From an uncultured Aquimarina sp. (GTDB taxonomy: Bacteria > Bacteroidota > Bacteroidia > Flavobacteriales > Flavobacteriaceae), in assembly GCF_947496855.1 (NCBI RefSeq), contig NZ_CANMED010000007.1, positions 310,001-374,000 on the forward strand: 64,000 nt of DNA. Reading direction: 5' to 3'. Every line of letters starts with the position of its first letter. The first letter of the stretch is position 1. The notes under the pieces are model-generated. The model was not told the origin of the DNA. It ran no database searches and saw nothing but the letters and a program-made list of their open reading frames with translations. Both the position numbers and the translations under genes were made by a program. Below, piece by piece: positions 2,713 to 20,935 of this stretch.

Positions 2713-3399
2713 ATGAACTCATACCAAGAAAAAGATAAATTTTATGTTGCCGTTGATTGTATCATTTTTGGATTTGAAGAAGGAAAATTAAAGTTGTTAG
2801 TTTTTAATCGAAAATTAAACCCTTTTAAAGATTCATTATCTCTTATCGGAAGTTTTGTGAAAATCGGAGAAAGTGTTTCTGACGCCTCAAAAAGGATTCT
2901 AAAAGAATCTACTGGCCTTCAAAATGTATATATGAAAGAGTTAAAAACATATAGTTCTGTAGATAGAGACCCCGGATTCCGTTGTATATCAATTGCTCAG
3001 TATGCTTTAATACGAATTAATAAGTACATAAAAAACACAGTTAAGGAAAACCAAGCAACATGGTTTGACATAGATATAATTCCCAAATTAATTCTGGATC
3101 ACAATCTTATGGTATCCAATGCTCTAAAAAGAATTGAAGAAATTGCAAGATATAAGCCTATCGGTTTTGAACTTTTACCAGAAAAATTCACTATCCCACA
3201 GCTACAGTCATTATACGAGGCTATTTATAGAAAATCATTAGACCCTAGAAATTTTCGAAAAAAAATACTTTCTTTTGATGTAATCATCAAACTAGAAGAA
3301 AAAGACAAAAGCAGTTCTAAAAAAGGTGCTTATCTATATAAATTTGATCATACCAAATATCAAAAACTACAAGAATCTGGATATAATTTTGAAATCTAG
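2713..3399 (+). CDS. NrtR-type transcriptional regulator (degenerate Nudix domain plus C-terminal winged helix)
   Basis: 228 aa; Nudix-like N-terminus (VAVDCIIFGFEEGKLKLLVFNRK...GSFVKIGESVSDASKRILKESTGL) and C-terminal FELLPEKFTIPQLQSLYEAIYRKSLDPRNFRKKI, typical of NrtR-like regulators. Confidence 0.85.
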   Translation: MNSYQEKDKFYVAVDCIIFGFEEGKLKLLVFNRKLNPFKDSLSLIGSFVKIGESVSDASKRILKESTGLQNVYMKELKTYSSVDRDPGFRCISIAQYALIRINKYIKNTVKENQATWFDIDIIPKLILDHNLMVSNALKRIEEIARYKPIGFELLPEKFTIPQLQSLYEAIYRKSLDPRNFRKKILSFDVIIKLEEKDKSSSKKGAYLYKFDHTKYQKLQESGYNFEI

Positions 3400-3442: not shown

Positions 3443-4459
3443 ATGTCATCGTTACTTCAAAAAATATACGACCTTCAGGATATAAATACATTATCGAAGC
3501 ACGAACAAATCGTTAACGGGATTATAAATGCAATTGACTCTGGAGTCCTAAAAGTAGGAGACAAATTACCTTCTATTAATGAAATGGTAGCATCAGTGGG
3601 ATATGCAAGAAAAACATTTGTAAAAGCGTATACCGAATTAAAAGAACGCGGACTAGTAGAATCTAAAAACCTTAAAGGGTATTATATTATTAGCGAAGAA
3701 ACTAATGTTAAATTAAAAGTGGCATTAATTTTATTTGCGTTCCATAGTTTTCAGGAAGATTTTTACAATACTTTTAGAAAAGAACTTGGTGAAAAATACC
3801 ATATTGATATTTTCTTTCATCACAATAACCTTACTTTACTTAAGACAATAATAGATAATATATCTCGTAAATATGGTATGTATGTTATAGCACCAATCCA
3901 AGAAAAAGAAGTTTCATCTATGATGAAACAAATACCTTCTGACCGACTATTAATTGTCGACCGCTATCTAAAAATGTCCAAAGACTATTCCTATATTTCT
4001 CAAGAATTTGAAGAAGTAACATATCAAAAACTGGTGGAGCTTACTACCTACATAAAAAAATACAACAGATTCGTATTATTTTTTAAGAAAAATTCTGATT
4101 TCCCTCCCGAAATTTTAAACGCTTTTAACCGCTACATATCTGACTACGATATTAATGGTGAGGTAGTAGATAGTTATGAACCTAATACATTGACAAAAAG
4201 CACGGCATACTTTTCTATTAGTGACACACAACTTTGGAAAGTTCTAAAAGATGCCCGGAAAATGGAATACCGAATTGGTTCTGATATTGGTATCCTAGCA
4301 CATGATGATAACATCGTAAAAGAAATTGCTTTTGGCGGAATAACAACAATTTCTACCGATTTTACGCAGATGGCAAAAAAAGCGGCTCATTTCGTTAAGG
4401 AAGGAAAGCCTATTCAAGAAATCGTTCCTACATACTTAAGACAACGCAATTCTCTTTAG
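3443..4459 (+). CDS. GntR family transcriptional regulator with sugar-binding-protein-like effector domain
   Basis: 338 aa; N-terminal GntR wHTH (IVNGIINAIDSGVLKVGDKLPSINEMVASVGYARKTFVKAYTELKERGLVESKNLKGYYI), then a periplasmic-binding-protein-like domain. Confidence 0.88.
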   Translation: MSSLLQKIYDLQDINTLSKHEQIVNGIINAIDSGVLKVGDKLPSINEMVASVGYARKTFVKAYTELKERGLVESKNLKGYYIISEETNVKLKVALILFAFHSFQEDFYNTFRKELGEKYHIDIFFHHNNLTLLKTIIDNISRKYGMYVIAPIQEKEVSSMMKQIPSDRLLIVDRYLKMSKDYSYISQEFEEVTYQKLVELTTYIKKYNRFVLFFKKNSDFPPEILNAFNRYISDYDINGEVVDSYEPNTLTKSTAYFSISDTQLWKVLKDARKMEYRIGSDIGILAHDDNIVKEIAFGGITTISTDFTQMAKKAAHFVKEGKPIQEIVPTYLRQRNSL

Positions 4460-7858: not shown

Positions 7859-9448
7859 ATGAAAACCATTAAAAAATTATTCCCCTTCATAATGTTATTA
7901 CTTTTTGTAGTAATTTATTATAGCTGTAACGAAGAAGACCTTAACATCTCAAATCCAAATAATGTAGCAGAACCTGCATTTTTTCAGTCTGAGAATGACT
8001 TTAGACTAGCCGTAAATGGCATGTACCATTCAATAACTGCGGTACTATTTTGGGGGCGGGTTATTCACACAGGTGCTATGCTACGATCAGACGCCTACAA
8101 TGTAATCCCATTCCAACAAAATACAACTATGTCTACGTTAGAAGGACAGCCCGGTATTTCCAGATGGGCAGTAGACCTTTATCCTCAACTATATCAATCT
8201 ATAGCTAGAGCTAATAGAATTATTGAAGAAGATACAGAAAACGGAGTACTATCCGGAGAGGTTCAAAACGAAATTTTAGGGCAAGCACATTTTCAACGTG
8301 CATTCTGTAATTGGTATTTACTTAACCTGTTTGGAACTGCTCCACTTGTTATGCAAACACCCGATACGCAAAACCCAGAAGAATTTTTTCCTTTTAACGC
8401 AACACCGACAATGTTTAATGAGGCAATTATTGCAGATCTTACAGAAGCAGTAAATAGACTCCCACAATCTTGGGGGCCTAATGATTTAGGACGTCCTACT
8501 AGAGGAGCTGCACTCGCTTTACGTGGGAAAACCTACCTATATATGGAAGATTGGCCAAATGCAATTACAGATTTTACAGAAGTAACTACACTAGGATATT
8601 CTTTACTTCCTTCAGGTAGTTATAGAGATAATTTTTCATCTAACTCTTCTTTAGAAAATAATTCAGAATCTGTATATGAACTTCAATATGTAGGACAAGA
8701 TAATTTTGTTTGGGGAGCAGATTCACCACTTACAGGATCTCAATCCAATTGGTATATTGATTATTCTCCTCCGCATATAAGTTTAGATCAAGGACATGTT
8801 ATAAACCCACATATTCTTCAAGTTTTTGAAGATAATGGAGATACTGTAAGAAGAAATACAACCATTGCCTTTGATTATCCTGGAGCAACTGGATATGGAG
8901 GCGCTCCATTTGTAGAAGATTTTGCTCCAAGTATTGAAGTTGCCGAGAACCTAGGAGTTCCAGCTATATTCTCTAGAAAATACGCAGGTTTAGATGAAGG
9001 TTTATCAAGCGCAGAAATTCCTGGTTTTGGACATACGTTGGGAACGAACTGGAGAATCATTAGATATGCTGATGTATTATTAATGTTAGCCGAAGCTCTT
9101 AATGAAGATGGTGCCACGGCAAATGCCATTCCCTTTATCAATCAGGTTAGAGAACGTGCGCAGATTTCACTATTGCCCAACACATTATCCAAAGAAGAAA
9201 CAGAACAAGCTATTATAGATGAACGGGTCATGGAATTGACTGGCGAAGGGCATCGCTTTTTCGATTTAGTACGTTGGGAATTAGCGGATGATATATTAGG
9301 CCCTAGTTCTACCGTAGCAGGAGGTCGTCATCCTAAATCTCTGGCAGGACCAGCAGCTGTATTTACTACCGGACAAGATGAATTTTTATGGATTCCTTTA
9401 CCAGAATTACAAGCCAACCCTAACTTAAACCAGAATGATGGATACTAA
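7859..9448 (+). CDS. SusD/RagB family nutrient-binding lipoprotein (PUL-1)
   Basis: 529 aa; lipoprotein signal (LLLFVVIYYSCNEED), RAFCNWYLLNLFGTAPLV, WRIIRYADVLLMLAEALNE, ERVMELTGEGHRFFDLVRW; directly after SusC. Confidence 0.96.
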   Translation: MKTIKKLFPFIMLLLFVVIYYSCNEEDLNISNPNNVAEPAFFQSENDFRLAVNGMYHSITAVLFWGRVIHTGAMLRSDAYNVIPFQQNTTMSTLEGQPGISRWAVDLYPQLYQSIARANRIIEEDTENGVLSGEVQNEILGQAHFQRAFCNWYLLNLFGTAPLVMQTPDTQNPEEFFPFNATPTMFNEAIIADLTEAVNRLPQSWGPNDLGRPTRGAALALRGKTYLYMEDWPNAITDFTEVTTLGYSLLPSGSYRDNFSSNSSLENNSESVYELQYVGQDNFVWGADSPLTGSQSNWYIDYSPPHISLDQGHVINPHILQVFEDNGDTVRRNTTIAFDYPGATGYGGAPFVEDFAPSIEVAENLGVPAIFSRKYAGLDEGLSSAEIPGFGHTLGTNWRIIRYADVLLMLAEALNEDGATANAIPFINQVRERAQISLLPNTLSKEETEQAIIDERVMELTGEGHRFFDLVRWELADDILGPSSTVAGGRHPKSLAGPAAVFTTGQDEFLWIPLPELQANPNLNQNDGY

Positions 9449-9502: not shown

Positions 9503-9536
9503 CCAAGCAAACCTTCCCTTGGGTTTGCTTGGTTTT
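9503..9536 (+). terminator. Hairpin (terminator/attenuator) between PUL-1 susD and the VCBS gene
   Basis: Perfect 11-bp arms CCAAGCAAACC (9503-9513) / GGTTTGCTTGG (9522-9532), followed by TTTT. Confidence 0.65.
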
Positions 9537-9555
9537 GAAAATTAACACCATCTTT

Positions 9556-12500
9556 TTGAAAAAATATATAATTCATATTGTACTTGTTCTGTTTCTTTTG
9601 GGATGCAAAAAACAGCCGTCCGAAGATTTTCTATTTACTCTTGTTCCGTCTTCACATAGCACTGTAGTTTTTCAAAATACAATTATTGAAAACGATTCTA
9701 TCAATGTTATTGATTTTCAATATTGTTATAATGGTGGAGGTGTTGGCATCGGTGATTTTAATAATGATAATTTACCAGATATTGTTTTTACTGCAAATCA
9801 AGCATCCAGTAAGCTTTACTTAAACCTTGGAGACCTGAAGTTTAAAGATATATCAGTAGAGTCACATTTTAAAACAAGTTCATGGATTACCGGAGTAAGT
9901 ATTGTGGACATAAACGCAGATGGATTAGATGATATTTATCTTAATGTAGGTGGAGCTAACTGTAATAATGATTGCAACAATTTATTGTTCATAAACCAAG
10001 GATTAAACAAAAAAGGCACCCCCTATTTTAAAGAGCAAGCCTCGATCTATGGTTTAGATGATGGAAACTACAGCCAACAAACTGTTTTTTTTGACTATGA
10101 TACTGATGGCGACCTAGATGCTTATATTGTTCATAATGGAAATACAAAAAGAGATAGAAACACTCCTATCCCTAAGAAATACCAACCTAAACATTTATCA
10201 GATTATTTATTAGAAAACAAAACTAAAGAAGATAAAAATCAAATATACTTTACCAACGTATCCGATAGTTTAGGAATCACTCATAAAGGATTTGGTCTTG
10301 GTGTTGCTATCAATGATTTTAATGATGATAATTTACCAGATATCTATATTAGTAATGATTTTATAACTAATGATCTTTTGTACCTAAACAAAGGGACTGA
10401 TACTATTGGAATGCATCTTGGGTTTGATGAAATAAATCAACAAATTTTATCAAAACAAACCTACAATGCGATGGGGGTAGACGTAGCAGATATTAACAAT
10501 GATTTATTACCTGATATTATGGTTGTAGATATGCTCCCTAATGATTATGAACGGCAAAAGAAAATGTTAGTTTCTAATAATTATGATCGATACTTATTGG
10601 CACAAAGAAACGGATATACACCTCAATATATTCATAATACGTTGCAGGTACATAATGGTTTTATCAATGACAAAATAATACCTGCCTCAGAAATTGGATT
10701 TGCTTCGGGTATTGCTAGCACAGATTGGAGTTGGGCTCCACTTATAGCAGATTATGACAACGATGGAAATAAAGATCTTTACATCACTAACGGTTATGTA
10801 AAAGATATTACCGATTTGGATTTCATCAATTACTCGGAACAAAACAACATCTTTGGGACCCCAGAAGCTCGAAAAGATAAATTTAAGACCTTAGTCAAAA
10901 AACTTCCGGGAATTCATCTTGCCAATGTGATGTATCAAAATAACGGTAAAACTCAATTTACTGATGTTTCTTCTCAATGGATCAGGAATCAAAAATCATA
11001 CTCTAATGGTTCTGCTTATGCAGACTTAGACTTGGATGGAGATTTGGATTTAGTTATAAATAATATTAACAGCCCGGCATCGATTTTAGAAAATCACACT
11101 TCAGAAAAAGGTAAAAAATTTTTGAGAGTACAGCTAGAAGGAACTTACAAAAACAAAAACGGAATTGGAGCAAAAATTACTTTGTGGGAAAATGCAAACA
11201 AACAAACACAATATCAATCTACAGTTAGAGGGTATTTATCATCTGTAGAACCGATTATTCATTTTGGTATTCACTCAGAAAAAATTGACTCATTACAAGT
11301 AATATGGCCAGATGGAAACGTTAGTTACAAAAAAGATATTCCATCAAATCAAGTTTTAACTATTTCTCATCAAAATTCTTATCACAATAAGTCTAGAAAA
11401 GAAACGGATCTAATATTTCAAAAAGATAAAACCACCTTTTCATACATACATACAGAAAATTATTTAAATGATTATTTACAACAATCATTACTAAGTCATC
11501 AATTTAATGCTCTAGGTCCTTGTATCATAAAAGGAAATATTGATAATCAAAAAGGCGATGAGATCTTTATTGGAGGTAGTAAAAATGTTCCAGGTACTCT
11601 TTTTGCGGAAGACAAAAATGGAATTTATAAACCTATTCAAAAATTAGATACCAAATATGAAGATACCGCTTCATTGTTTATTGACATTGATCACGATGGA
11701 GATAACGATTTATATATTGGAAGCGGAGGAAGTGATGCAGGAAATAATGAAGAATTATTAAAAGACAGAATATTTATTAACAATGGCAAAGGGCATTTTT
11801 CTATGTCGCATGACAAAGTTCTTTCCAAAATTAAAACAAATACAACTTGTGTTGTTGCAAATGATGTAGATAATAATGGATTCCAAAATATTTTTATCGG
11901 TGGGGGTGTTCTGCCAGGTAAGTACCCGCTTCATACACCTAGCTATATACTTACTAATCAAAAAGGTAATCTATCAATAAATAATAAAATTTCTTTCTCT
12001 AAACCCGGTATCGTAACTGATGCGAGCTGGGCAGACATTAATAATGATAAAACAAAAGAACTAATCGTAGTTGGACAGTGGATGCCTATCTCCATCTATA
12101 ATATCAACAAAGACAAAGCAAAAGAAATCCCTATACAATGGCTAGATACAGAAGGAAAAAAAATAAAAATGTCTGGTTGGTGGAACAGTATAACGCTCGC
12201 GGATTTCGATAATGACGGTGATCAGGACATACTAGCAGGTAATCAAGGAACTAATGGATTTATACAACCAAGGTTTGATCAAGCTGTATATGTTTACACA
12301 GAGGATTTTGATCATAATGGAAGTATCGATCCTGTTTTAGCTCAGTATTTCGAAACTACTGATGGCCTATCTCTTAAACCTATACATACTCGAGATGACA
12401 TTATGAAACAATTGGTAAGTTTAAAAAAACGATACCCTACATACAATGAATTTGCTAAAGTCAACTTTCAAGAATTATTAAATATCAATGATTTAGACAA

Positions 12501-12915
12501 AGAAACTCTTAGTGCTCATATATTTCAATCAATTTACGCAGAGAATATAGGAGACAACATTTTTAAAGTGCATTATTTACCTCAAGTTTGTCAACGATCT
12601 CCTATCAATGATTTTCTTATCCAAGACATTGATCAAGATGGTTTTAAAGATGTTCTAATCGTAGGCAATAATTATTCTGCAGAAGCCAATTACGGCAGAC
12701 ATGATGCTATGGTAGGAATCTACTTAAAAGGATCAAAAAAAGGTTTTATTCCAATAGAAAATAATAAAAGTGGTTTTTTGATAACAAAACAATCCAATCA
12801 TATCATTTCTGTCCAAAAGAGAAATAAAGAAAATTTAGTTTTTGCCACGCAAAACAATGACAGCATAGTTGTACATCGTATAATTAAAAAAAGAAATGTT
12901 TTAGCAAAAGACTGA
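9556..12915 (+). CDS. VCBS/FG-GAP repeat lipoprotein with ASPIC/UnbV-like region (PUL-1)
   Basis: ORF track begins at TTG 9529, but that codon lies inside the hairpin. The in-frame TTG at 9556 gives MKKYIIHIVLVLFLLGCKKQPSED, a clean lipoprotein signal. Repeated D-x-[DN]-x-D-G blades and ...GIGAKITLWENANKQTQYQSTVRGYLSSVEPIIHFGI...DSLQVIWPDG (ASPIC/UnbV-like). Confidence 0.88.
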   Translation: MKKYIIHIVLVLFLLGCKKQPSEDFLFTLVPSSHSTVVFQNTIIENDSINVIDFQYCYNGGGVGIGDFNNDNLPDIVFTANQASSKLYLNLGDLKFKDISVESHFKTSSWITGVSIVDINADGLDDIYLNVGGANCNNDCNNLLFINQGLNKKGTPYFKEQASIYGLDDGNYSQQTVFFDYDTDGDLDAYIVHNGNTKRDRNTPIPKKYQPKHLSDYLLENKTKEDKNQIYFTNVSDSLGITHKGFGLGVAINDFNDDNLPDIYISNDFITNDLLYLNKGTDTIGMHLGFDEINQQILSKQTYNAMGVDVADINNDLLPDIMVVDMLPNDYERQKKMLVSNNYDRYLLAQRNGYTPQYIHNTLQVHNGFINDKIIPASEIGFASGIASTDWSWAPLIADYDNDGNKDLYITNGYVKDITDLDFINYSEQNNIFGTPEARKDKFKTLVKKLPGIHLANVMYQNNGKTQFTDVSSQWIRNQKSYSNGSAYADLDLDGDLDLVINNINSPASILENHTSEKGKKFLRVQLEGTYKNKNGIGAKITLWENANKQTQYQSTVRGYLSSVEPIIHFGIHSEKIDSLQVIWPDGNVSYKKDIPSNQVLTISHQNSYHNKSRKETDLIFQKDKTTFSYIHTENYLNDYLQQSLLSHQFNALGPCIIKGNIDNQKGDEIFIGGSKNVPGTLFAEDKNGIYKPIQKLDTKYEDTASLFIDIDHDGDNDLYIGSGGSDAGNNEELLKDRIFINNGKGHFSMSHDKVLSKIKTNTTCVVANDVDNNGFQNIFIGGGVLPGKYPLHTPSYILTNQKGNLSINNKISFSKPGIVTDASWADINNDKTKELIVVGQWMPISIYNINKDKAKEIPIQWLDTEGKKIKMSGWWNSITLADFDNDGDQDILAGNQGTNGFIQPRFDQAVYVYTEDFDHNGSIDPVLAQYFETTDGLSLKPIHTRDDIMKQLVSLKKRYPTYNEFAKVNFQELLNINDLDKETLSAHIFQSIYAENIGDNIFKVHYLPQVCQRSPINDFLIQDIDQDGFKDVLIVGNNYSAEANYGRHDAMVGIYLKGSKKGFIPIENNKSGFLITKQSNHIISVQKRNKENLVFATQNNDSIVVHRIIKKRNVLAKD

Positions 12916-12947: not shown

Positions 12948-14714
12948 ATGAAAGAAGTCATTACTCATAATATAGAGATAATACAGGAGTCCAAAGATTT
13001 TCAAGTTCATATAACCTTACTTGAAGAACAACATGGAGTAACTATATATAATATTAATTTTTCATCTGAAACTAAATTTCAACCACAAAAAGTGACTTTT
13101 AAATGGAAAATCCCTGTTGTTAATGTAAAAGGTGTCTGGAAACCTACAACAGATTTTGCAAAAAGAATCATGGATGATTGGGAATTGGATCATATGGAAT
13201 CAAGAATTTCTGTAGATTCCCCTGTAATTTCTTTATTTGGTCATGATGACAGTAACATCATTACATTTGCCTGTTCTGATGCTATTAATACTAAAAAATT
13301 GAATGCATTATATAGAGAAGAAGATAATTGTATTTATTGTCATATTTCATTTTTCACAGAAAGACATCACGCAATTACAGATTATAACGCACAACTAAGA
13401 ATTGATCAAAGTAACCAACCTTTTTCGGAGTCTTTAAAAAATGTAGGGAAATGGTGGGAGAGTTTTGAAAGTCTCACTCCGGCAATTGTTCCTGATTTAG
13501 CAAAAGTTCCTGTATATTCTACCTGGTATCAATTTCATCAAAAACTAGATATAGAAAATCTTATTGAAGAATGTAGAATTGCTTCCACATTAGGATACGA
13601 GTTAATAATAATCGATGATGGATGGCAAACCAATGATGAAAACAGAGGTTATGATTATACAGGTGATTGGTATCCCGAGAGGATTCCTGAAATGAAAAAT
13701 TTTGTCAACAAAATCCATACTACAGGAATGAAATTAGCTTTATGGTATTCTGTTCCTTTCTGTGGGAAGAAATCAAAAGCGTATAAAAAATTTAAAGGTA
13801 AATTCCTTACAGAAGAACATCGTTGGGCTCCTGTATTTGATCCCAGGTATCCTGAAGTAAGAGAATATCTGATAAGCTTATATGTAAATGCATTAAAAAC
13901 TTGGAGAATTGACGGTTTCAAACTGGATTTCATCGACGAATTTAAAGTATACCCTAGTACCAAACTAACTAAAGAAGAAGGAAGGGACTACTCCTCTGTA
14001 AATCTAGCAGTAGATCGATTAATGACAGACATAATGAGTTCATTACATGCCATTAATCCAGAGGTTGTTATCGAATTTCGTCAAAAATATACAGGTCCTG
14101 CCATGCGCAAATATGGTAATATGTTTAGAGCATTTGACTGCCCTGGTGATTCTGTAATGAATAGAGTGCGGATTACTGATATCAAGATCCTTTGTGGCGA
14201 AACTGCTGTGCACAGTGATATGTTTACTTATCATACAGAAGAACCTTTAGAAATAAAAGCATTGCAATTAGTGAATACCTTATTTGGAGTCCCACAACTT
14301 TCTATTTTACTTCAAAAAGCAACATCAGAAGAATTATCAATGATCCATTTTTATACACATTATTGGAGAAATCATTCCGATGTTTTCTTAAAAGGAAAAT
14401 TTATCCCACAAAAACCTTTAGCAAATTATCCAGTACTTAAATCTTCTTTAGAGGACCATACAATTATTGGGTTATTTGACAATTATATTATTGATTTTCA
14501 GGAAGAAACGAACAGAGTTGATATCATTAATGGTCAGTTAAACACCAAAATCGTACTGAGTAGTGATAAAAATTATGGAGCCTATCATTGTGTGATCTAT
14601 GATTGTACTGGAAAAAAAATAAATGAATGCAATTTAATGGTTCTCATAGGAGTCGTTCAAATAAAAGCACCTGTTTGCGGATTAATTATATTAGAAAAAA
14701 ACGCCGAAACTTGA
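12948..14714 (+). CDS. Alpha-galactosidase, GH36-like, no signal peptide (cytoplasmic)
   Basis: 588 aa; VPVYSTWYQFHQKLDIENLIEECRIASTLGYELIIIDDGWQT...LALWYSVPFCG...GFKLDFIDEF...VVIEFRQKYTGPAMRKYGNMFRAFDCPGDSVMNRVRI, GH36 (melibiase) clan features. N-terminus MKEVITHNIEIIQ lacks an export signal. Confidence 0.85.
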   Translation: MKEVITHNIEIIQESKDFQVHITLLEEQHGVTIYNINFSSETKFQPQKVTFKWKIPVVNVKGVWKPTTDFAKRIMDDWELDHMESRISVDSPVISLFGHDDSNIITFACSDAINTKKLNALYREEDNCIYCHISFFTERHHAITDYNAQLRIDQSNQPFSESLKNVGKWWESFESLTPAIVPDLAKVPVYSTWYQFHQKLDIENLIEECRIASTLGYELIIIDDGWQTNDENRGYDYTGDWYPERIPEMKNFVNKIHTTGMKLALWYSVPFCGKKSKAYKKFKGKFLTEEHRWAPVFDPRYPEVREYLISLYVNALKTWRIDGFKLDFIDEFKVYPSTKLTKEEGRDYSSVNLAVDRLMTDIMSSLHAINPEVVIEFRQKYTGPAMRKYGNMFRAFDCPGDSVMNRVRITDIKILCGETAVHSDMFTYHTEEPLEIKALQLVNTLFGVPQLSILLQKATSEELSMIHFYTHYWRNHSDVFLKGKFIPQKPLANYPVLKSSLEDHTIIGLFDNYIIDFQEETNRVDIINGQLNTKIVLSSDKNYGAYHCVIYDCTGKKINECNLMVLIGVVQIKAPVCGLIILEKNAET

Positions 14715-14937: not shown

Positions 14938-17900
14938 ATGAATAAAAAATATATTATTGCTTTTGACCAAGGAACCACAAGTACCAGAGCCATCATTTTT
15001 GACAATAAAGGTACTATTTGTGGAATTGCTCAAAAAGAATTGACCCAATATTACCCTAAATCAGGATGGGTAGAACATGATCCTATTGAAATTTTCAGAC
15101 ATCAACAAGAAGTCTTTGAAGAAGTATTAGACATATCCAAAATAAGTATAGATAAAATTGCAGGTATAGGCATCACCAATCAAAGGGAAACTACTGTAGT
15201 TTGGGATAAAACAACGGGAGAGCCTATTTATAACGCTATTGTATGGTTAGATAAAAGAACATCCAGGATTTGTAAAAACCTAAAGGCTATTGGTCTTGAA
15301 GATTATGTTACCAAAAACACGGGATTAGTAATAGATTCTTATTTTTCTGGAACAAAACTAAAATGGATTCTGGATAATGTAGAGGGTGCAAGAGAAAAAG
15401 CAGAAAACGGAGATCTGTTATTTGGCACCGTCGATACCTGGTTAATCTGGAAATTCACAAATGGTACTAGCCATGTTACCGATCATTCCAACGCTTCCAG
15501 AACCATGTTGTACAATATTATACAATTGAAATGGGATGACACGATGTTAACAGCATTGAATATTCCAAAGGACATGCTCCCTAAAGTTCAATATTCTTCA
15601 TCCGATTTTGGAAGTATTTCTTATCAAGGAAAAGAAGTTCCGATATATGGTGTTGCTGGAGATCAGCAAGCTTCGTTATTTGGTCAAGGAGGTTATAAAT
15701 CCGGAATCGCTAAAAACACCTATGGAACTGGTTGTTTTTTATTATTAAATACGGGGAAAAAAGCCTATCAATCTAATAATGGTTTACTGACCACCTTGTG
15801 CTGTAGTCTTCCGGAAGATAATATAAAATATGCCTTAGAAGGTAGCGTTTTTGTAGGAGGTGCTTCTGTACAATGGCTCCGTGATAAATTACAAGTAATC
15901 ACAAAAGCTTCGGAAACCGAAGAAATCTGCAAATCTACTCCGTCTTCAGAAGGCTTATACGTAGTCCCTGCATTTGCGGGTTTAGGAGCTCCTTATTGGG
16001 ACATGAGTGCTAAAGGTGCTATTTATGGATTAACACTGGATTCAGGGAAAAATGAGATTATAAAAGCCACCGTAGATGCCTTAGCTTATCAAACTCGTGA
16101 TGTATTAGACGCAATGATAGAAGATAGTGGCAAACTCATGAAAGAACTTAAAGTAGATGGCGGAGCATCTGCTAATAACTATTTAATGCAATTTCAGGCC
16201 GACATTCTAAATGTAGAAGTAGATCGACCTGCAATGTTAGAAGTAACGGCACTTGGTGCTGCATTCCTGGCAGGAATAAAAGCTGGGGTTTGGACAAAAA
16301 AGGATATTTCAAAAATTAGAATTGTAGATACCAAGTTTAAACCCCAGATTACAGAGCATGAGCGAAACAGAAAATACAGTGGATGGAAAGAAGCAGTAGA
16401 ACGCACTAAATCTTCTAATGCCAAAATGCTCTCTACTAAAGAGGAAGGTCCAATTCGATTTTCTATTCTTGATCGGCACATACAATTGCAAAAAGCTCAG
16501 ACAACTAAATATGACATCATTATTATTGGCGGAGGAGTCACCGGGGCAGGAATTGCTTTGGATGCTGCTTCTAGAGGATTAAAAGTATGTTTAGTAGAGA
16601 AAAACGATTTTGCTTCTGGAACCAGTAACAAATCTACAAAACTCATTCATGGTGGATTGCGATATCTTAAACAAATGGAAATCGCACTTGTAAAAGAATC
16701 TGGAAGTGAGCGCGCTACTGTTCATAAACTTGCCCCACATTTGGTAGTGCCAGAAAAGATGTTGTTACCATTGATAGAAGGAGGAACTTATGGAAAAATG
16801 ATGACCGCCATAGGATTAAAAGTATATGATTTTTTGGCAAATGTAGAAGGAGATGACAAACGAAAAATGCTTAGCATAGAAGATACAATTGCAAAGGAAC
16901 CGTTATTAAATAAAAACAAACTTACGGGAGGAGGTTATTATGCAGAGTATCGAACTGATGATGCGAGACTTACTGTAGAACTTTTGAAAAAAGCAGCTTC
17001 TTATGGAGCCAATATCATCAATTATTGTGAAATGACGACTTTTAATTACGATGATGAAGGAAAGATTAAAAGCTTAGAATGTCTAGATCATAATTCACAA
17101 AAAAGATTTATTATCAAAGCAAGAAATTACGTTTCAGCAGCAGGTCCTTGGGTAGATTTATTACGAGAAAAGGATCATTCTATGAATAACAAACACTTGC
17201 ACCTTACTAAAGGAGTGCATATTGTTTTTTCTAGAGAACAGTTTCCACTTACCCAATCTGTATACTTCGATGTACCAGATGGAAGAATGATTTTTGCTAT
17301 CCCTAGAGGCAGAGCAACGTACGTTGGAACTACGGATACCAACTACAAAGCCAACCTAAATCGTGTGGTAGCTACACAAGAAGATGCTCAATACTTATTA
17401 GATGCAGTAAATAATATGTTTCCAACCGTAAAACTTACTGAAGAAGACATAGAATCCAATTGGGCCGGACTAAGGCCACTCATTCACGAAGATGGTAAAG
17501 ACCCTTCAGAATTATCTAGAAAGGATGAAATCTTTGTTTCTAAAACAGGATTAATTTCGATTGCCGGAGGAAAACTTACTGGATATCGAAAAATGGCGCA
17601 ACGTGTAATTGATACTGTTCTGAAAACAATGAGTTCTAAGAAAAGGGAACAGTTTTCAAAATCGTTTACTCAAAACATACCTCTTACCAGTGACCCCCTT
17701 AAAGATACAGAGGAAGTAGAGAAGTATCTTCTGAAAATTAATCAACAGCTAAAAGAACTAAACGTACAGGATGAATATTATGGATGGTATCTAGCCACCA
17801 CATATGGCAAACAAGCCAATACTATTATCGATAAAGTAAGTTATTTTTTAAATGATTCTATCGAAGAAAAATTAATACGATCCGAAGTATGGTATGGCGT

Positions 17901-18117
17901 GCATCATGAGATGATTAATGGATTGGCTGATTTTTTTGTAAGACGAACCGGAAGATTATATTTTGGGATCGATAGTGTCCGTCAATATCGATCTATGGTG
18001 CAAGAAGATCTTATAAAGTATTTAAGATGGGATGAACAACGTCTGGAAAACGAAAATAAATATCTCGATTTATTACTACAAGATGCATCGACATATTATG
18101 AGCATGAAGTTACTTAA
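14938..18117 (+). CDS. Bifunctional glycerol kinase (residues ~1-497) :: FAD-dependent glycerol-3-phosphate dehydrogenase (residues ~500-1059) fusion
   Basis: Single 1059-aa ORF. N-half: [25 protein letters not shown]...[11 protein letters not shown]...[14 protein letters not shown]...[41 protein letters not shown] (GlpK). C-half: [55 protein letters not shown]...[16 protein letters not shown] (GlpD). Confidence 0.95.
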
Positions 18118-18170: not shown

Positions 18171-19817
18171 ATGGGAATATTCTCTTTTATTGGATTTACA
18201 TTACTTGTAGCAATATATGCTTGGTGGAAAACCAGGAACACTGATGAAAAATCGGCTGATGGCTACTACCTAGGAGGTAGAAGTCTTGGCGCTATAACTA
18301 TTGCAGGTTCATTATTACTCACGAATTTATCCGCAGAACAGATTGTAGGACTTAATGGGCAAGCCTTTACGGAAGGAGTACTGGTTATGGCTTGGGAAAC
18401 ATTGGCTGCCATTGCTATGGTACTTACCGCCATATGGTTACTTCCTAAATACATGAAAGGCGGTATTACTACAATTCCTGAGTTTATAGAAAAACGCTTT
18501 GATGAAAATACAAAAGCCATATTATCTGTTTTATTTCTGGTAGCTTTTAGTATCGTGCTATTACCTACAATTCTATATTCCGGATCACTCGCCTTTAGTA
18601 CTATGTTTGACTTGCCAACATTATTGGGTTGGTCTAAATCTTCTACTATTTGGCTTTGCGTATGGAGCATTGGACTCATAGGAGTCATATATGCAATTTT
18701 TGGAGGATTAAAGGCGGTTGCAGTATCAGACCTTATAAATGCTATAGGATTATTAATAGGTGGACTATTAATTCCATACTTTGGATTAAAGTTAATTGGT
18801 GATGGAAGTATGATGGATGGCATCAATACATTATGGACAGAAAATCAAGATAAGTTTAATGTTACCGGAGGAGTTACTTCGTCTATTCCTCTAGGAACTA
18901 TTTTTACGGGAATGATGATAGCACAAATGTACTATTGGGGAACTAATCAATCTATTTTACAGCGCGTTTTTGGTGCAAAAAGTTTAAAAGAAGGGCAAAA
19001 AGGAATGATGCTTGCAGCCTTTGTGAAATTTCTCATTCCCATAATCGTTGTACTTCCTGGTATTATAGCCTGGAATGTATTTAATGGAAACCTTGATTCT
19101 GCAGATCAAGCATATCCAGAACTTGTTCGTAAAGTACTTCCTCCTGCATTGCTTGGCTTTTTTGCAGCTGTCCTTTTTGGTGCTGTATTGAGTTCGTTTA
19201 ATAGTTTGTTGAATAGTAGTGCTACACTTTTTGGGTTTGATCTCTATAAAAAATTCTTTAAACCTGATGCAAGTGACCTTCAAACGGTGAAAGCAGGTAA
19301 ATTATTTGGCCTTATAGTCGCTTTAATTTCTATGACAATCGCACCATTTATTGCCAATGCTCCAGAAGGATTGTTTTCTTATATTCAGCAAGCTTTAGGA
19401 AGCTTAAGTGTTCCTATTTTAGCAGTGGTTATCATTGGAATACTTACAAAAAAGGTACCTGCTCTTGGAGCTAAAGTAGTACTAATTGCTGGAGTTCTTA
19501 TGTATCTAGCAAGTTTACTTATCTTAGGTCCTTATTTCACAAACGAAGCATTATCCCAAGCAACTTCTAACGGCATTACAGATCCAGACCAATTAGCCAT
19601 TATCAAAGCTGAAGCATATCCCCATTTTTTACACATTATGGGAATTTTATTTGTAATTAATGTAACCATTATGCTCATCATTGGAGTTCTTAAACCAAAA
19701 ACAGACATGTATGTCCCTATAACTACAGATGTGATAGACACAACATCTTGGAAATATGCTTTTATAGTTGGTGCGATTATCACAGTGTTAGTCATTAGCA
19801 CTTACTTGATTTTCTAA
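18171..19817 (+). CDS. SSS (solute:sodium symporter) family transporter, SGLT-like
   Basis: 548 aa multispan; GYYLGGRSLGAITIAGSLLLTNLSAEQIVGLNGQAFTEG, AIFGGLKAVAVSDLINAIGLLIGGL, MYYWGTNQSILQRVFGAKSLKEGQKG. Confidence 0.92.
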   Translation: MGIFSFIGFTLLVAIYAWWKTRNTDEKSADGYYLGGRSLGAITIAGSLLLTNLSAEQIVGLNGQAFTEGVLVMAWETLAAIAMVLTAIWLLPKYMKGGITTIPEFIEKRFDENTKAILSVLFLVAFSIVLLPTILYSGSLAFSTMFDLPTLLGWSKSSTIWLCVWSIGLIGVIYAIFGGLKAVAVSDLINAIGLLIGGLLIPYFGLKLIGDGSMMDGINTLWTENQDKFNVTGGVTSSIPLGTIFTGMMIAQMYYWGTNQSILQRVFGAKSLKEGQKGMMLAAFVKFLIPIIVVLPGIIAWNVFNGNLDSADQAYPELVRKVLPPALLGFFAAVLFGAVLSSFNSLLNSSATLFGFDLYKKFFKPDASDLQTVKAGKLFGLIVALISMTIAPFIANAPEGLFSYIQQALGSLSVPILAVVIIGILTKKVPALGAKVVLIAGVLMYLASLLILGPYFTNEALSQATSNGITDPDQLAIIKAEAYPHFLHIMGILFVINVTIMLIIGVLKPKTDMYVPITTDVIDTTSWKYAFIVGAIITVLVISTYLIF

Positions 19818-19912: not shown

Positions 19913-20935
19913 ATGAAAATATTAGTTACCGGTGGATTGGGGTTTATCGGATCACATACAGTAGTGGAATTACAAACAGAAGGATATGATGTCATTATTA
20001 TTGATAACTGCTCTAACTCTTCTACTGATGTTCTAAAAGGAATAGAGGCAATTACAGGAAAGCTACCAATTTTTGAAAACTTTGATCTTAGAGAAAAAGA
20101 TAAGGTTGAGGATTTTTTCACACGTCATAAGGATATCGAAGGTGTTATTCATTTTGCAGCGTCTAAAGCTGTTGGAGAAAGTGTAGAAAATCCTCTCTTA
20201 TATTATGAGAATAATATAAGTGTACTTGTATATGTTCTCAAAGAACTACAGAAAAAAGATAAAACCAGTTTTATTTTCAGTTCTTCTTGCACTGTATATG
20301 GTCAGGCGGATGAATTACCTATTACTGAAAATGCGCCTGTGAAAATTGCAGAATCCCCTTATGGAAATACGAAGCAAATTGGTGAAGAAATTATAAAAGA
20401 TGTCTGTAAGGTAAAACCAAATCTAAACGCAATTGCATTGCGTTATTTTAATCCTATTGGCGCGCACCCTTCTACAGAAATTGGTGAATTACCCATTGGA
20501 GTTCCTCAGAATCTGATTCCATTTATTACCCAAACAGGTATTGGAATTAGAGAAGAACTTTCTGTTTTTGGGGATGATTACCCAACAGAAGATGGAACAT
20601 GTATTAGAGATTACATACATGTTGTAGATCTCGCCAAGGCTCATGTGATTGCTCTTCAACGTCTTCTAAACATGACTAACACATCCAATTATGAAGTATT
20701 TAATGTTGGAACAGGAACTGGTAGTTCCGTATTAGAAGTTATACAGTCTTTTGAAAAAGTATCTCAACAAAAATTGAACTATAAAATTGTAGATAGAAGA
20801 GAAGGGGATATTATCTCTGCTTTTGCTAATACTGACAAGGCTAACAAGGAACTCGGCTGGAAAGCTAAGAGCAGTTTGGATGAAGCATTATCTTCTGCTT
20901 GGAAATGGGAACAAAAAGTGAGAGGAAAGAACTAG
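19913..20935 (+). CDS. galE: UDP-glucose 4-epimerase
   Basis: 340 aa; MKILVTGGLGFIGSHTVVELQ, SSCTVYGQ, SPYGNTKQIGEEI (YxxxK), ALRYFNPIGAHPS, GTCIRDYIHVVDLAKAH, NVGTGTGSSVLEVI. Confidence 0.95.
   Translation: MKILVTGGLGFIGSHTVVELQTEGYDVIIIDNCSNSSTDVLKGIEAITGKLPIFENFDLREKDKVEDFFTRHKDIEGVIHFAASKAVGESVENPLLYYENNISVLVYVLKELQKKDKTSFIFSSSCTVYGQADELPITENAPVKIAESPYGNTKQIGEEIIKDVCKVKPNLNAIALRYFNPIGAHPSTEIGELPIGVPQNLIPFITQTGIGIREELSVFGDDYPTEDGTCIRDYIHVVDLAKAHVIALQRLLNMTNTSNYEVFNVGTGTGSSVLEVIQSFEKVSQQKLNYKIVDRREGDIISAFANTDKANKELGWKAKSSLDEALSSAWKWEQKVRGKN

Follow-up and report, generated by a model that had tools for sequence, protein, structure and literature searches.

A single-gene fusion of glycerol kinase and glycerol-3-phosphate dehydrogenase in Aquimarina and related Flavobacteriaceae

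Glycerol kinase (GlpK) and glycerol-3-phosphate dehydrogenase (GlpD) are usually separate proteins that catalyze consecutive steps, from glycerol to glycerol 3-phosphate (G3P) and from G3P to dihydroxyacetone phosphate (DHAP). The Bacteroidota glpK-glpD pairs that we examined outside the clade described here are likewise separate genes; they are often adjacent, the closest pairs lying a few bases apart, and glpF often adjoins them. Here, we analyzed a 64,000-nucleotide stretch of DNA from an uncultured Aquimarina sp. (hereafter the window), in which the same two enzymes are joined in one chain instead of being made as two proteins. Both halves are members of known families, and it is their combination that is new. 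A search of the open-access literature returned no account of a GlpK-GlpD fusion, which is weak evidence, and the main text of a gene-fusion survey (PMC4921024) names neither glpK nor glpD. We consider it likely that the gene encodes a genuine bifunctional glycerol-to-DHAP enzyme that was fused once and that here most likely handles glycerol derived from galactosylglycerol.

Domains, catalytic residues and linker

The gene opens with an ATG codon and runs to its end without an internal stop (Table 1). A domain search with Pfam placed FGGY_N at residues 5-249, FGGY_C at 259-447, DAO at 526-856 and DAO_C at 945-1035, all above the curated cut-offs, in accordance with an earlier note on this DNA that had read the frame as a single-ORF fusion of two complete enzymes. 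The same uninterrupted architecture recurs, at 64-97% identity, in dozens of independently sequenced species. This excludes the missed stop or frameshift between the domains that the note had considered, and leaves only a negligible probability that sequencing or assembly produced the fusion as an artefact. Automated naming may label such a protein "glycerol kinase" alone, and GlpD could then appear to be absent from pathway reconstructions.

Table 1 Features of the window discussed in the text, in order of position
Feature	Coordinates	Strand	Basis and remarks
NrtR/AraR-type NUDIX regulator	2713..3399	+	Precedes the SusC/SusD genes
GntR-type regulator with periplasmic-binding-like domain	3443..4459	+	Precedes the SusC/SusD genes
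SusC-like TonB-dependent transporter, 1023 aa	4766..7837	+	By eye: carboxypeptidase-like/plug start, directly before SusD
SusD-like protein	7859..9448	+	Directly after SusC
FG-GAP / UnbV_ASPIC lipoprotein-like protein	9529..12915	+	Part of the locus
Alpha-galactosidase-like hydrolase (Melibiase / clan GH-D, remote)	12948..14714	+	Melibiase match; co-occurrence with glycerol kinase; signal peptide not apparent by eye
GlpK-GlpD fusion gene, 1059 aa	14938..18117	+	Single open frame; Pfam/NCBIfam; same fusion across many species
Glycerol kinase half (residues 1-490), with an intact set of glycerol/ATP-site residues	14938..16407	+	Aligned with E. coli GlpK (3ezw/1bu6); these residues do not vary among 51 fusions
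Linker (residues about 491-507), which varies among fusions, measures 12-17 aa and is modelled with low confidence	16408..16458	+	Comparison of 51 fusions; structure model
GlpD half (residues 508-1059), with DAO and DAO_C domains, an FAD site and a native FSxLDR N-terminus	16459..18117	+	Pfam; residues invariant in 51 fusions
SGLT-type sodium:solute symporter (SSS)	18171..19817	+	Nearest solved structure is the Vibrio galactose symporter vSGLT; adjoins the fusion in several genera
UDP-glucose 4-epimerase-like gene (galE)	19913..20935	+	Found with the fusion in loci of Aquimarina, Dokdonia and the Leeuwenhoekiella type

The gene is under purifying selection, with dN/dS values (dS being near saturation) of 0.040 for the GlpK half (41 pairs), 0.045 for the GlpD half (42 pairs) and 0.125 for the linker (35 pairs), which we read as strong and equal constraint on the two halves. 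Across 51 fusions, the mean fraction of the top residue was 0.79 in both halves, compared with 0.50 in the linker. A structure model of the whole fusion was confident for GlpK only, and every Foldseek match was to GlpK; residues 558-675 of the GlpD half were badly modelled, probably because the alignment is shallow.

Like described GlpK proteins of the FGGY family (models TIGR01311 and NF000756; E. coli structures 1bu6/3ezw), the kinase half is full length, aligning end to end with the E. coli enzyme, retains all catalytic residues and exceeds the cut-off of the NCBIfam GlpK equivalog TIGR01311 (695.9 bits, cut-off 590.35). In an alignment of 51 fusions, R83, E84, W103, Y135, D242 and Q243 were present and invariant. 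We take them to match the catalytic Asp and the glycerol-binding residues of E. coli GlpK (R83, E84, W103, Y135, D245 and Q246), and this half is predicted to convert glycerol and ATP to sn-glycerol-3-phosphate. It differs from the E. coli enzyme in that its C-terminus runs on into GlpD and in its fructose-1,6-bisphosphate loop, which is three residues shorter in the alignment, with Arg236 replaced by Glu, so that fructose-1,6-bisphosphate inhibition through an E. coli-type site is unlikely.

The second half shares with described GlpDs (3da1; E. coli 2qcu) the DAO and DAO_C domains and conserved substrate and FAD residues, and differs from them in forming the C-terminal half of a longer chain. 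Its Rossmann FAD motif, GGGVTGAG, lies at residues 531-538. Mapped by alignment, R575, Y576, R846, R861 and K879 are invariant across the 51 fusions and are presumably the counterparts of the E. coli GlpD substrate residues R54, Y55, R317, R332 and K354. A loss of catalytic residues, which the earlier note had also considered, was thus found in neither half. The score against the NCBIfam equivalog PRK12266 fell below the cut-off (338.2 versus 360 bits); this model probably derives from the E. coli-type branch, with the GlpD half of the fusion nearer to the 3da1 branch. We therefore classify this half as GlpD-like from its domains and residues, without the support of PRK12266.

The model that matched this half best was the NCBIfam type 1 G3P oxidase (NF033461), and type 1 GlpO proteins (2rgh, 2rgo), which belong to the same subfamily and have an N-terminal FS...R motif in common with it, are its closest oxidase relatives. 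An oxygen-using GlpO that produces hydrogen peroxide, instead of a quinone-linked dehydrogenase, is nevertheless improbable, as the score of 453.9 bits is far short of the cut-off of 840, at about half of it, and the closest solved structure is the one named glycerol-3-phosphate dehydrogenase (3da1, 512 bits), ahead of GlpO 2rgh (357 bits) and E. coli GlpD 2qcu (185 bits). As an FAD-dependent dehydrogenase, the C-terminal half would convert G3P to DHAP and most likely pass the electrons to the quinone pool.

The linker proved shorter than the roughly 25 residues proposed earlier, since part of that stretch is the native N-terminus of GlpD: it is present in unfused GlpDs (M...FSVLNR...), and in the alignment with streptococcal GlpO it is matched by FSNKTRQDSIQKMQ. 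What remains is poorly ordered in the structure model and little conserved among the fusions. An internal start at Met497 could in principle yield a separate GlpD beside the full-length protein, and a Met is indeed found at position 497 in 22 of the 51 fusions, and somewhere in the linker in 27. However, the linker of the other 24 contains no Met, so an internal start cannot be a conserved mechanism, and we regard a second product as very improbable.

Distribution and history of the fusion

The fusion is conserved across many Flavobacteriaceae genera. Of 93 loci compared (partly overlapping, from two collections), 82 contain the single-ORF form; these come from Aquimarina, Dokdonia, Tenacibaculum, Polaribacter, Leeuwenhoekiella, Psychroflexus/Mesohalobacter and Ulvibacter. 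Among 69 genomes of the Aquimarina genus, 38 encode the fusion, 10 GlpD only, two an unrelated unfused pair and 19 neither enzyme. In a family-wide sample of 201 genomes, mostly one per genus, it occurred in nine genomes from eight genera, the window's own included, and the seven fusions outside the Aquimarina genus were verified by their ORFs. A wider, phylum-level spread had been considered on account of distant matches with open frames of 1020-1180 aa, and was rejected when the fetched loci proved to contain separate GlpK and GlpD frames.

The window belongs to a 5.8 Mb genome of the Aquimarina group that is 99.99% complete. The earlier note had suggested a check for separate glpK and glpD genes; a fusion query of this genome returned no second GlpK or GlpD, only the fusion itself and one FGGY-family kinase at 27%. 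The same is true of the Aquimarina-group genomes bearing the fusion in general, in which it is the sole GlpK and GlpD; no separate close GlpK copy accompanies it in the fusion-bearing genomes of the 69-genome sample.

We built a tree for each half, with 88 rows for GlpD and 80 for GlpK, and in both of them all fusions fall in one strongly supported Flavobacteriaceae clade. Nested within this clade are unfused close relatives, namely Lacinutrix with G180 and a group formed by G100, G053, G067, G051, G069 and L046. The fused and unfused states change six times on the GlpD tree and five times on the GlpK tree, a count that alone does not separate gains from losses. Because every fusion lies in one flavobacterial clade in both trees, a single fusion followed by several splits is the simplest reading. 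The fusion would then have arisen once, when an adjacent glpK-glpD pair a few bases apart was joined in an ancestor of a Flavobacteriaceae subclade, and would afterwards have broken up several times. In most split pairs of the clade, the glpD start lies 4-13 bases from the glpK stop, the two genes overlap, or one in-frame stop stands between them (L046, L058), so that a single mutation can be enough to gain or lose the fusion. The exception is G180, with a spacer of about 190 bases.

Some Aquimarina have lost the kinase half. Three lone GlpDs of Aquimarina (L094, L095 and L096, in genomes G004, G002 and G019) keep the linker of the fusion at their N-terminus (AKEESPIRFSVLDR), and their loci share a downstream PAP2 gene with fused species. 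The direction of change is plain here: the kinase half was lost from a fusion in these three genomes, none of which contains a glycerol kinase. In a further genome (G001), just the last ~30 codons of the fusion gene are left, in the same genomic place.

Gene neighborhood and the substrate question

In the window, the NrtR-type and GntR-type regulators are followed by SusC, SusD, the FG-GAP/UnbV protein, the hydrolase, the fusion, the SSS symporter and galE. The locus thus combines adjacent SusC (called by eye) and SusD with a glycoside hydrolase, the composition by which a polysaccharide utilization locus is recognized. The fusion does lie between an alpha-galactosidase and an SSS transporter, as noted earlier, with the likeness of the hydrolase only remote: it scored 37 bits against Melibiase and 32 bits against the best solved structure, alpha-galactosidase 3mi6. 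Its substrate is uncertain for this reason.

The order hydrolase, fusion, symporter, galE is found in Aquimarina and Dokdonia loci, and the order hydrolase, symporter, fusion in those of Tenacibaculum and Polaribacter. Leeuwenhoekiella-type loci have galM, the fusion, a HAD gene and then galE or galT. A HAD-type phosphatase gene was repeatedly seen downstream of the fusion (L056, L080 (Hydrolase_6), L035, L118), in several cases before galE. Upstream in the window, at positions 2426-2500 of the minus strand, we observed a galactokinase relic, in which a stop codon comes no more than about 10 codons after the signature IVNFLGEHTDYNNGF. As an intact galK-galT pair is located elsewhere in the genome (L156), the locus probably once had its own galK.

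Across the 69 genus genomes, an orthologue of the hydrolase (at least 60% identity) was present in 29 of 40 genomes with a glycerol kinase and in none of the 29 without (Fisher p = 2e-10, kinship ignored); all 10 GlpD-only genomes lack it. This association fits an intracellular release of glycerol by the hydrolase. Glycerol together with galactose suggests a galactosylglycerol, such as floridoside or a galactolipid head group, and the fusion in the window's locus probably serves the use of such a floridoside-type compound. The galactosylglycerol would be imported via SusC/SusD and the SGLT-type symporter and cut inside the cell by the alpha-galactosidase-like hydrolase, which would free glycerol for the fusion, with the galactose passing to GalE and the Leloir enzymes. 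If this assignment is true, the locus shows a route by which marine Bacteroidota use galactosylglycerol; we found no floridoside or galactosylglycerol locus of Bacteroidota described in the open-access literature.

The link to this substrate belongs to some loci only and is no property of the fusion as such, since many fusion loci in other species have neither the hydrolase nor the symporter within 4 kb. The idea of one substrate tied to the fusion in all species was rejected on the same grounds, as gene contexts vary. Unfused pairs also adjoin the same hydrolase and symporter (L046; L099-L105). The earlier note had taken the fusion to be substrate-specific rather than part of a general glp operon. 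For the window, this agrees with the SusC/SusD-hydrolase-symporter-galE locus, with the hydrolase tracking the kinase across the genus and with the location of the genome's glpF genes, which are absent from the fusion locus and sit elsewhere. The denial of a general role does not stand, however: as the only GlpK and GlpD of a nearly complete genome, the fusion must also cover whatever general glycerol or G3P needs of this type arise, and the same fusion occurs in unrelated contexts in other species.

One glpF operon of the window's genome (L158, G000 contig C7:463000-475500) contains dhaK, dhaL and an 826-aa DhaM-HPr-enzyme I-like gene; together with a separate fused 565-aa DHA kinase, it makes up what, by eye, looks like a complete flavobacterial dihydroxyacetone route of the PTS type. 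In two Cyclobacteriaceae / Flammeovirgaceae loci (L081, L089), unfused glpK-glpD occurs with an SSS transporter, a GH13 hydrolase and a GH37 trehalase-type gene (Pfam-tested in L081). These loci may be the equivalent, for glucosylglycerol or trehalose, of the galactosylglycerol locus.

Possible consequences of the fusion

Joining the two enzymes may have had little effect on fitness. If an overlapping, co-translated operon lost a single stop codon, this would be harmless and would fix a 1:1 ratio of the two activities, and we give such a near-neutral origin about an even chance. It is favored by the repeated fission of the gene and by the arrangement of the clade's unfused pairs, which overlap or lie 4-13 bases apart, some with a single in-frame stop. 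The retention of the fusion over many genera and the equal constraint on both domains could be held against it, but are compatible with neutrality as well. A kinetic or spatial advantage, in which G3P is channelled between the active sites or the kinase is held at the membrane beside the respiratory chain, appears doubtful to us. The fusion has been kept over many genera with a short linker, and no separate close GlpK copy was found beside it in the genus sample, which speaks for such an advantage. Against it, the linker is variable and modelled with low confidence, and G3P is a stable intermediate that is needed for phospholipids too. Moreover, the fusion was split several times within its clade, some of the split pairs staying in the same type of locus, which indicates that tethering is not essential.

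A more elaborate proposal would combine these elements: a locus devoted to floridoside of red algae and other galactosylglycerols, a fused enzyme by which G3P is channelled or the kinase linked to the respiratory membrane, and a kinase half that is dropped once a lineage loses the hydrolase. Taken as a whole, we consider this rather unlikely. The bifunctional enzyme that we favor places two textbook consecutive enzymes in one chain that is conserved over marine genera and repeatedly broken, and so constitutes a natural experiment on fusion versus flux. As close relatives carry fused, split-in-place or GlpD-only versions, the comparison needs no engineering.

Two minor observations concern the 3' side of the gene. 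Remnants of its 3' end were seen at L098:4000-4110 and in G656 (contig C2:1846193-1846550), both in genus genomes without the rest of the gene. In Flavobacteriaceae bacterium NBU2973, a WS/DGAT gene (wax ester synthase/diacylglycerol acyltransferase; L067:7251-9083) is located directly 3' of the fusion.
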